From: Haloterrigena salifodinae
Lineage (GTDB): Archaea > Halobacteriota > Halobacteria > Halobacteriales > Natrialbaceae
Assembly: GCF_003977755.1 (NCBI RefSeq)
Contig: NZ_RQWN01000003.1
Location: forward strand, 124,001-188,000
Direction: 5' to 3'
Length of the DNA stretch: 64,000 nucleotides
Shown: positions 29,759-31,278 of the stretch, piece by piece
Numbering within the stretch: position 1 is the stretch's first letter
Layout of the letters: every line of letters starts with the position of its first letter
Made by a program: the position numbers and the translations under genes
The notes under the pieces: model-generated
Databases searched by the model: none
Told to the model about the DNA's origin: nothing
The model's input: only the letters and a program-made list of their open reading frames with translations

Positions 29759-29767
29759 GGATTTAAT
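29759..29767 (+). promoter_or_regulatory. TATA-like box of the argG leader ORF
   Basis: Sequence GGATTTAATACC; the TTTAATA core (about 29762-29768) lies about 28 nt before the ATG at 29793, the standard spacing for leaderless haloarchaeal genes. It implies transcription begins at or just before the leader ORF rather than at argG. Confidence 0.55.
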
Positions 29768-29792
29768 ACCGATGCTGCTCATAGCACCACCA

Positions 29793-29885
29793 ATGAGTCA
29801 TACCGTCGGCGCCACGACCGCCGCACCCGGTACCGACGGGGCTGTTTCTCCGCGGCGACCGCGACGACGACGGCCGGGCCGTTGA
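29793..29885 (+). CDS. Arginine-rich putative leader peptide upstream of argG
   Basis: 30-codon ORF, ATG to TGA, ending RRPRRRRPGR: seven Arg codons in its last ten positions, four of them CGA. It begins about 28 nt after a TATA-like box and ends 148 nt before argG. An Arg-codon cluster directly before an arginine biosynthesis gene is the hallmark of attenuation leader peptides in bacteria, where stalling at the amino acid codons controls the downstream gene. Here this is inference. Two small hairpins (29935-29962) lie between it and argG, and argG also has its own TATA-like boxes, so an independent micro-protein cannot be excluded. Confidence 0.5.
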   Translation: MSHTVGATTAAPGTDGAVSPRRPRRRRPGR

Positions 29886-29934
29886 GCCCGATTACTACCT
29901 ACCTCCCCTCGAACCGGTTCGTTCCAACGATCCA

Positions 29935-29962
29935 GAAAATGCAGAATTTTCGGCTAGCAGCC
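29935..29962 (+). promoter_or_regulatory. Tandem small hairpins between leader ORF and argG
   Basis: GAAAAT/ATTTTC with loop GCAGA (29935-29951) directly abuts GGCT/AGCC with loop AGC (29952-29962). A perfect GAACCGGTTC palindrome sits just upstream (29911-29920). Together they could form alternative structures in the argG leader RNA; no U-tract terminator is evident. Confidence 0.4.
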
Positions 29963-30033
29963 GCTCTACCGCTAATTTACACGACTTAAACCAATGAGCT
30001 TAAGTCCCTCCTTCCGCTTTCCTCGCATACGAC

Positions 30034-31278
30034 ATGACCCGCGTGGCACTTGCGTTCTCGGGCGGCCTGGACACGACTGTCTGTGTCCCGTTGCTCGAGG
30101 AAGAGTACGGATACGACGACGTTATCGGCGTCACGGTTGACGTCGGCCAGCCGGCTTCCGAGTTCGAGGAAGCCGAAGAAACCGCCGACGCGCTCGGCTT
30201 AGAGCACTACGTCGTCGACGCGAAAGAAGAGTTCGCCGACCTCTGTCTCGAGGGCGTTCGCGCGAACGCGACCTACCAGGGCTACCCGCTGGGGACGGCC
30301 CTGGCTCGCCCGGTGATCGCCGAAGCGATCCTCGAGGTCGCCGAAGAACAAGACTGTACCGGCATCGCCCACGGCTGTACCGGCAAGGGTAACGACCAGC
30401 TCCGCTTCGAAGCGGTCTGGCGCGACTCCGACCTCGAGGTCATCGCCCCCGTGCGCGAGCTCGGCCTGACCCGCGAGTGGGAACAGGAGTACGCCGCGGA
30501 GAAGGACCTGCCCGTCGAGGGCGGCAGCGGCGGCGACTGGTCGATCGACACCAACCTCTGGAGCCGCTCCGTCGAGGGTGACGAGCTCGAGGATCCCAAC
30601 TACGTCCCGCCGGAGGACATCTACGCCTGGACCCAGGCGCCGACGGGCGAGACCCAGGAGATCGAGATCGAGTTCGAGGAGGGCTACCCCGTCGCCGTCG
30701 ACGGCGTCGAGTACGATCCCGTCGACCTCATCGAGCACTTAAACGGCGTGGCCGGGGCCTACGGCGTCGGCCGCACAGACACGATGGAAGACCGCATGCT
30801 CGGCCTGAAGGTTCGCGAGAACTACGAGCACCCGGCGGCGACGACGCTGCTCAACGCCCACGAGGCGCTGGAAGGACTCGTGCTCACCCAGGAGGAGCGC
30901 CAGTTCAAGCAGCAGATCGACCAGCAGTGGGCCCAGAAGGGCTACGAGGGCCTGATCGACGCGCCGCTCGTAGACGCGCTTGAAGGCTTCATCGCGGAGT
31001 CCCAGAAGCGCGTCACCGGAACCGTCACGATCCGCTTCGAGGGCGGCCAGGCCCGCGCGGTCGCACGCGACAGCAAGTTCGCGGCCTACTCCGCCGAGCA
31101 CGCTTCCTTCGACACCGAGACCGTCGGCAAGATCAAGCAGGAGGACGCCACCGGCGTCGCGAAGTACCACGGCTTCCAGCGCCGCCTCGCCAACGAGGCG
31201 ATCGCGGCCAACGCCGAGGACGTCGAGAAGCCGGAACTCGCAACCGACGGCAGCGGCAGTGACGAGGACGAGGAATAA
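30034..31278 (+). CDS. argG: Argininosuccinate synthase
   Basis: 414 residues. It joins citrulline and aspartate with ATP to argininosuccinate. The ATP pyrophosphatase loop FSGGLDTTVC (about 8-17), HGCTGKGNDQ (substrate binding) and SIDTNLWSRSVEG are present. First enzyme gene of the arginine cluster; argH starts 2 nt after its stop. TATA-like boxes at about 29984-29991 and 29998-30004 may give it an additional promoter besides the leader promoter. A C-terminal acidic tail (SGSDEDEE) is halophile-typical. Confidence 0.97.
   Translation: MTRVALAFSGGLDTTVCVPLLEEEYGYDDVIGVTVDVGQPASEFEEAEETADALGLEHYVVDAKEEFADLCLEGVRANATYQGYPLGTALARPVIAEAILEVAEEQDCTGIAHGCTGKGNDQLRFEAVWRDSDLEVIAPVRELGLTREWEQEYAAEKDLPVEGGSGGDWSIDTNLWSRSVEGDELEDPNYVPPEDIYAWTQAPTGETQEIEIEFEEGYPVAVDGVEYDPVDLIEHLNGVAGAYGVGRTDTMEDRMLGLKVRENYEHPAATTLLNAHEALEGLVLTQEERQFKQQIDQQWAQKGYEGLIDAPLVDALEGFIAESQKRVTGTVTIRFEGGQARAVARDSKFAAYSAEHASFDTETVGKIKQEDATGVAKYHGFQRRLANEAIAANAEDVEKPELATDGSGSDEDEE

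Follow-up and report, generated by a model that had tools for sequence, protein, structure and literature searches.

The argG leader region

The analysed window is a stretch of 64,000 nucleotides (nt) from the haloarchaeon Haloterrigena salifodinae (contig NZ_RQWN01000003.1, positions 124,001 to 188,000). In it argG, the argininosuccinate synthase gene, is preceded by a short open reading frame (ORF) rich in arginine (Arg) codons, the leader ORF, which ends with its stop codon inside the loop of a small hairpin, here named HP1 (Table 1). The first-pass annotation of the sequence had described the 30-codon ORF, its C-terminal end RRPRRRRPGR (7 Arg in 10 residues) and the 148 nt between its stop codon (TGA) and the argG ATG, and all of these are present. 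Seen by comparison of haloarchaeal argG loci, the region comprises the ORF, an Arg run rich in CGA codons, a covarying hairpin, a G-free tract, TATA boxes and, at some loci only, a box before argG. On this basis, the region is probably a ribosome-mediated attenuator of the arginine operon, which would sense arginine-tRNA.

A TATA-like box before the leader had also been annotated and was found, but the first T of TTTAATA lies 31 nt 5′ of the leader ATG, not about 28 nt as claimed. A spacing of ~31 nt between TATA box and ATG is the one expected for leaderless haloarchaeal transcripts. A second in-frame ATG is located upstream, at 29772; the start was placed at 29793 because the TATA spacing matches this position. 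Tandem hairpins and a palindrome (GAACCGGTTC, 29911-29920) had been named as further elements. The palindrome and two small inverted repeats near 29936-29963 exist in the window, but they were not conserved in an alignment of Natrialbaceae, the family of the window, inspected by eye, and were rejected as conserved parts. Conserved in the relatives were the ORF, the Arg run and the leader TATA box. HP1, which had been overlooked, was more conserved than the palindrome and the downstream repeats.

Table 1 Features of the argG leader region in the window, and argG loci with an incomplete or missing leader.
Feature	Position or loci	Strand	Basis
Leader promoter, TATA box TTTAATA	29762..29768	+	sequence and family alignment; predicts a leaderless leader mRNA
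Leader ORF, 30 codons, MSHTVGATTAAPGTDGAVSPRRPRRRRPGR and stop	29793..29885	+	strict test at 134/156 loci; in-frame indels 13/17
Arginine codon run CGG CGA CCG CGA CGA CGA CGG CCG GGC CGT	29853..29882	+	sequence, codon counts
Hairpin HP1, CGGGC-cgttga-GCCCG, stop TGA (29883-29885) in loop	29875..29890	+	covariation; folding energy no better than shuffles
G-free C/U/A tract, 20 nt, directly 3′ of HP1 (ATTACTACCTACCTCCCCTC)	29891..29910	+	sequence, locus comparison
TATA-like box CTTAAG, second, argG-proximal promoter	29999..30004	+	conserved in Natrialbaceae (family of the window)
argG (argininosuccinate synthase)	30034..31278	+	ORF list, homologue search
No leader	L056 (second argG copy of the species), L111, L112 (distant argG)		
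Degenerate element	L139, L163		
Hairpin and Arg run retained; stop missing from the loop, displaced or in another frame	L003, L004, L006, L019, L053, L092, L119, L125, L127, L128, L135, L137, L152, L168		
Stop-containing hairpin, Arg count too low or no suitable start	L133, L134, L169		

Distribution among haloarchaea

We compared 156 argG loci. One scan of named genomes supplied 67 of them, and further genomes of the same order supplied 30 and 59. The latter 89 were hand-picked for genus spread from 252 genomes with argG (253 genomes searched). Natrialbaceae are over-represented in this set, and all counts are counts of loci, not of independent events. A strict detector, defined by a short ORF with at least three Arg in its last 12 codons and a stem of at least four G-C pairs with the stop codon in the loop, was positive at 134 of the 156 loci, including L087, where it picked a wrong stop. 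There were 129 distinct leader ends, with identical ends in L012/L014, L026/L062, L048/L164 and L049/L052/L160.

Among the argG loci of at least 4 kb (n = 96), 87 were positive at the true place, versus one to six at each of six control places. Upstream regions of hisG, trpC, trpS and pheS from the same order gave three positives in 94. The corresponding ORF and hairpin test was negative at all 24 outgroup argG loci (60 genomes of the phylum searched, 52 of them outside the order; 22 of the 52, with loci, were examined, plus L111 and L112). A search of Rfam with eight loci gave no match at the gathering score, the window stretch having only one chance hit, on the opposite strand and far below the cut-off. 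These searches thus gave no support for a known RNA family such as a riboswitch or T-box.

Of the 12 labelled haloarchaeal families sampled, 10 had the leader (f1-f6, f9 and f11-f13; none in f8 and f10, with one genome each), so that the ORF, whose conservation the first-pass annotation had left to be checked, is indeed kept among relatives. Its length ranged from 18 to 50 codons (median 29), and common endings, directly before the stop, were RRPRPGR, RRRRPGL and RRRPGSF. Of 129 leaders, 100 had a hexamer consisting only of A and T at −34 to −22 relative to their ATG; among 970 control ATGs the share was 7%. The choice of leader starts among in-frame ATGs by this same score favours the result.

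The 22 loci that failed the strict test were grouped by eye (Table 1): 14 had a hairpin without an in-frame stop in the loop, three fell short in Arg codons or had no suitable start, and in five the element was absent or degenerate. Four of the 14, three from Natronorubrum (L003, L004, L006) and L019, have the Arg run out of frame with the in-loop stop, which is itself lost in L019. Their ORF extends well past the retained hairpin, and they are natural variants separating the hairpin from the stop. In Natronolimnohabitans innermongolicus, the argG copy on contig 59 (L056; 71% identity to the query) is a second copy without leader, and the other copy (L034) has one.

The stop-codon hairpin

The stem arms of HP1 were GGGCC/GGCCC at 59 loci, CGGGC/GCCCG at 27, GGGTC/GACCC at 14, GGGC/GCCC at nine and GGCCC/GGGCC at eight, with others rarer. 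Stem sequences thus varied between groups, and the pairing was maintained. Base pairs 1–4 of the hairpin are canonical by construction of the detector, and the fair tests are those with leaders picked by Arg content alone and with swapped arms. In the first, a hairpin flanked the stop in 110 of 117 leaders, versus a mean of 14.5 (maximum 23) after shuffling of the 3′ side. In the second, 97.1% of the positions in 28 distinct arm pairs were canonical, versus 66.7% (maximum 77.9%) with swapped arms.

The stop codon was TAG in 83 leaders, TGA in 49 and TAA in two. It was on the 3′ side of the loop, which was 3–9 nt long, and its frame relative to the 5′ arm differed among loci (by eye). Consensus folds of the interval from leader to argG, calculated for eight groups, contained HP1 in seven.

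Reading frame and codon usage

In the Natrialbaceae alignment, 13 of 17 distinct indels inside the ORF had a length divisible by three; downstream of it, this held for 2 of 26. Within 32 pairs of close relatives, the substitution rates at codon positions 1, 2 and 3 were 0.117, 0.112 and 0.144 in the N-terminal part and 0.049, 0.076 and 0.121 in the Arg part. Differing codons over the whole ORF were nonsynonymous in 155 cases and synonymous in 76. With near-equal change at the three codon positions, no constraint at the amino-acid level was detected in the N-terminal part. The first-pass annotation had raised the possibility that the Arg codons drift freely; the Arg run turned out to be the conserved part, and it is the remainder of the ORF that drifts. 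An ORF that stays open and keeps its Arg run, with its other residues largely free, fits a leader and not a protein. Between families, the peptides differed widely and shared only the Arg/Pro-rich tail. This does not agree with an arginine arrest peptide of the fungal type, which depends on a conserved peptide sequence.

These data also bear on an explanation at the DNA level, in which HP1 would serve as the dyad for an arginine-responsive repressor or activator. The Arg-rich ORF would then arise secondarily from a binding site rich in CGA. Operators can be inverted repeats, covariation in a palindrome preserves DNA dyads too, HP1 of the window does not stand out in RNA folding energy and some loci keep the hairpin without an in-loop stop. 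Against this stand indels that keep the frame inside the ORF only, and a stop that keeps its side of the loop through changes in loop length and in frame relative to the 5′ arm. Stem sequences that change between families would be unusual for a conserved operator, and the TATA box, with its spacing of ~31 nt to the ATG of the leader, is a further point against it. We consider a DNA dyad very unlikely.

Arg was present at codons −4, −5, −6 and −7 before the stop in 105, 84, 95 and 101 of the 134 leaders, respectively (63–78% each). The final 14 codons of the leaders contained 660 Arg codons, 61.5% of them CGA and 6.5% CGC; of the 1591 Arg codons of argG in the long loci, 3.5% were CGA and 67.6% CGC. 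In 18 long genes of the window, CGA made up 15.7% of the Arg codons. The CGA share in leaders was 50–83% in every labelled family with leaders, some of them with few codons, and 61.4% after removal of duplicates. CGA is decoded by a separate tRNA-Arg (UCG), and the theory of selective tRNA charging predicts codons of rare isoacceptors in leaders. A constraint on the DNA or RNA could be an alternative cause of the CGA preference.

Promoters and locus classes

The loci were split in two classes by a test for a TATA motif at −46 to −24 of argG. Class I comprised f4, f6, f9, f12, 50 of the 52 f1 loci and half of f13, and class II comprised f3, f5, f11 and the other half of f13. Among loci with leaders, 66 of the 83 in class I had an all-A/T hexamer at −46 to −20 of argG, as did one of the 51 in class II, a contrast partly built in because the split itself uses such a motif; the classes nonetheless follow families. 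Over the whole interval between leader and argG, all 83 class I loci contained such a hexamer, and one of the 51 class II loci did. In class II the leader promoter is therefore the only one visible, and argG should share the leader transcript. The first-pass objection that argG has TATA-like boxes of its own stands for the family of the window, where argG has a conserved TATA box too and two promoters must be assumed.

The class split also bears on the idea of a separate micro-gene, raised at the first pass. On this reading the leader would encode an arginine-rich microprotein and have a promoter and a terminator to itself, argG would be expressed from its own promoter, and their proximity would be incidental. 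In class I the ORF and argG each have a conserved TATA box, HP1 could end a small transcript, and parts of PMC4983044 raise a microprotein alternative for upstream ORFs (uORFs) of Haloferax. A microprotein gene does not agree with the unconstrained N-terminal part, nor with peptides that diverge between families and keep only the Arg run. In the window’s own genome, 21 places matched two hairpin patterns and only the argG place had an ORF and a TATA box; the patterns cover two stem types only, and backward-read control patterns were commoner, with 64 places. The near absence of a TATA-like box before class II argG also argues against a stand-alone gene, which we regard as very unlikely.

The median distance from the leader stop to argG was 145 nt in class I and 96 nt in class II (class II range 70–184 nt). 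Pairing of the Arg segment with the sequence before argG had a mean z of −1.34 in class II (44 of 48 loci at or below the shuffle median) and −0.23 in class I (46 of 82). In a second run for class II, the Arg segment scored −1.30 and the N-terminal segment −0.77 (both negative at 40 of 48 loci), versus −0.28 with the argG coding sequence. Class II loci also had a G-poor stretch just 5′ of the argG ATG, with 10% G at −25 to −1.

Several class II loci (L090, L101, L105, L048, L051 and L155) carried a second G + C-rich inverted repeat of the type CCGCCC...GGGCGG between the G-free tract and argG. Behind this repeat, and 5′ of the argG ATG, lay a stretch rich in A and C and poor in G. The repeat also appeared in a consensus fold calculated from nine loci. 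In the window (~29954-29969) and at the matching places in Natrialbaceae, a conserved element around TTAGC/TTAGAG ... CTCTA lies some 30–45 nt 5′ of the argG-proximal TATA box. In L010, L016, L028 and L033 it is almost a clean dyad, for example TTAGAGTGCACTCTAA in L033. The element is possibly a transcription factor site of the second argG promoter.

The ArgG encoded in the window shares 100% identity with the ArgG of Haloterrigena salina JCM 13891 (L002). The ORFs 3′ of argG, for which no family search was made, we take to be argH and further arg genes. Haloarchaeal arg genes are listed in parts of PMC10433800, which also describes genome editing in Natrinema gari J7-2.

Leaders before other genes

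Upstream of pheS, a short ORF with an end of the type GFGFFF was found by a strict motif in 17 of 30 genomes and not in the other 13. A second rule, which also included a TATA-like box 26–30 nt 5′ of the ATG, recognized the leader in 18 of 30, and similar ORFs were present in L195, L213 and L214. The consensus was M(A/P)SEP...PGFGFFFA followed by the stop (L194, L198, L204, L206, L208, L212, L215, L216 and others). By eye, there was no GGGC hairpin at the stop of the pheS leader. Many pheS loci shared GTGGACTC ... GACGAAACCG downstream of the Phe-rich ORF. This ORF is possibly the uORF listed before pheS (HVO_2948) of Haloferax volcanii in parts of PMC4983044.

Upstream of trpC (30 loci, 27 with usable starts), four short ORFs had at least two Trp, but they were unlike each other and none had a terminal Trp run. 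Upstream of trpS, none of 30 loci had an ORF with at least two Trp and a TATA-like box. Of 24 hisG loci, 19 could be oriented, and none of these 19 had a His-rich leader.

Proposed mechanism

Control of argG by translation of an Arg-codon leader had been put forward at the first pass. The conservation, the Arg run and the promoters speak for it, but the conserved RNA element is HP1 and not the hairpins named then. That the leader is translated, that ribosomes stall in it, that transcription ends at HP1 and which way the response goes are all inferred from the sequence features. The leaderless transcript would begin at the leader ATG and be translated at once. With ample charged tRNA-Arg for CGA, the ribosome would pass the Arg codons, arrive at the in-loop stop and leave. 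HP1 would then form and, together with the G-free tract, stop or uncouple the RNA polymerase before argG. Under arginine shortage, the ribosome would be held in the Arg run and transcription would continue into argG.

The usual footprint of a ribosome reaches ~12 nt ahead of the A site. Because the last codons of the Arg run are within ~12 nt of the 5′ arm, HP1 could not form in time under stalling. A ribosome held at codons −4 to −6 would cover all or part of the 5′ arm, and one held at −7 or earlier would not. In the direction that we favour over the opposite one, a stalled ribosome keeps HP1 from forming, so that transcription proceeds, and HP1 forms once leader translation has ended normally. 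In families without an argG TATA box, the leader route would be the sole way to express argG; in the window’s family, it would add to the separate argG promoter.

A 15-nt stretch 3′ of the hairpin was free of G at 118 of 134 loci, compared with ~2% expected from a background G content of 0.23. The tract is rich in C and also contains T and A. It had a run of at least four T in 2% of class I and 10% of class II loci, with TTTT at few loci, some of them A + T-rich (L055, L095, L050). In Haloferax volcanii, a T-stretch gave 95% termination and a hairpin element 59%, according to parts of PMC7237163.

The scarcity of T-stretches is in line with a different output of the same ribosomal sensing. Instead of ending transcription at HP1, it would act on how well the argG mRNA is translated or how stable it is or, in class I, through leader transcription that interferes with the promoter of argG. 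The pairing of the Arg segment before argG and the G-poor stretch at the argG ATG in class II would also agree with an output on the mRNA, and in class I leader transcripts would cross the argG promoter. An output by translational coupling is opposed by the distance from leader stop to argG, which in all of class II exceeds the 30–40 nt at which coupling is lost in gene pairs of E. coli and Haloferax (parts of the review PMC12548453). The G-free tract, moreover, adjoins HP1 and not argG. We judge an output other than termination as rather unlikely.

Several observations weigh against attenuation by termination at HP1. Most HP1 tracts do not have the T-stretch that gave 95% termination in Haloferax volcanii, and the window copy is not unusually stable, which makes termination the weakest step. 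Compared with shuffles, the folding energy of HP1 had a z of 0.55 in the window, −0.46 in L048, −1.32 in L050 and −0.84 in L055, so that the case for the hairpin is carried by the covariation. RNAalifold gave no consensus structure when 40 class II sequences were folded together. The consensus folds of the eight groups had no second or alternative structure in common, and no conserved antiterminator was found. At 14 loci the hairpin is retained, by eye, without a proper in-loop stop; the position of the stop is therefore not essential everywhere, and the role of the hairpin goes beyond carrying it. In class I, argG has its own conserved TATA box. The excess pairing of the Arg segment in class II is suggestive only, because the neighbouring N-terminal segment scores too. 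The direction of the response would depend on timing, since a ribosome on the in-loop stop would also block HP1.

Comparison with known systems

In bacterial attenuation of amino-acid operons (trpL, hisL, ilv/leu), a leader ORF carries a run of codons for the product amino acid next to a hairpin, with the biosynthetic gene downstream. The haloarchaeal leader has the same arrangement, with a short 5′ ORF, the product-amino-acid codons near its end, a hairpin beside the run and the biosynthetic gene downstream. It differs in its predicted leaderless start, the stop in the hairpin loop, the mostly missing T-tract, the lack of a clear antiterminator and the second argG promoter in class I. In control of the pyrBI and tna type, a ribosome near or on a hairpin or stop decides termination. 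The haloarchaeal leader resembles these systems in having a single ribosome-covered hairpin instead of three alternative helices. Unlike UTP and free tryptophan there, the signal would be Arg-tRNA, read via CGA codons. The fungal arginine attenuator peptide (uORF of arg-2/CPA1) acts through its own conserved sequence. It is likewise an arginine-linked short ORF upstream of an arginine gene, but the haloarchaeal peptide is unconstrained outside the Arg run.

For Haloferax volcanii, parts of PMC4983044 report 16 uORFs in long 5′ untranslated regions, one before pheS and none before argG. Seven of the 16 had a further transcription start site at the main gene, and all 16 peptides had a low isoelectric point. 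These are likewise short upstream ORFs of a haloarchaeon, one of them before pheS, but in the same parts of PMC4983044 no amino-acid sensing is proposed for them, unlike our proposal for the argG leader.

Implications

According to parts of PMC8448881, no transcription attenuation or antitermination mechanism was known in archaea as of 2021. Our literature search, mostly outside subscription papers, found no haloarchaeal arginine leader. We lean, with reserve, toward the view that haloarchaea have translation-dependent attenuation, in which the charging of the CGA-decoding tRNA-Arg would be read via a leaderless ORF with an in-hairpin stop and would gate the arginine operon. This would be the first case in Archaea and present in most of the sampled haloarchaeal families, with the independent Phe-rich pheS leader as a second member. 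Devices of this kind are known from bacteria; what is new, as far as seen, is that one occurs in archaea, that its stop codon is placed in the hairpin loop and that CGA is the preferred codon.

The argG leader region would be a case of archaeal attenuation open to ordinary genetics. It bears on whether the coupling of ribosome and RNA polymerase in archaea is close enough for a stalled ribosome to decide transcription, and on the control of arginine synthesis in haloarchaea. The choice of CGA would show selection for a tRNA isoacceptor as the sensor. The split into class I and class II would show such a switch coexisting with a second promoter, or dispensing with it.

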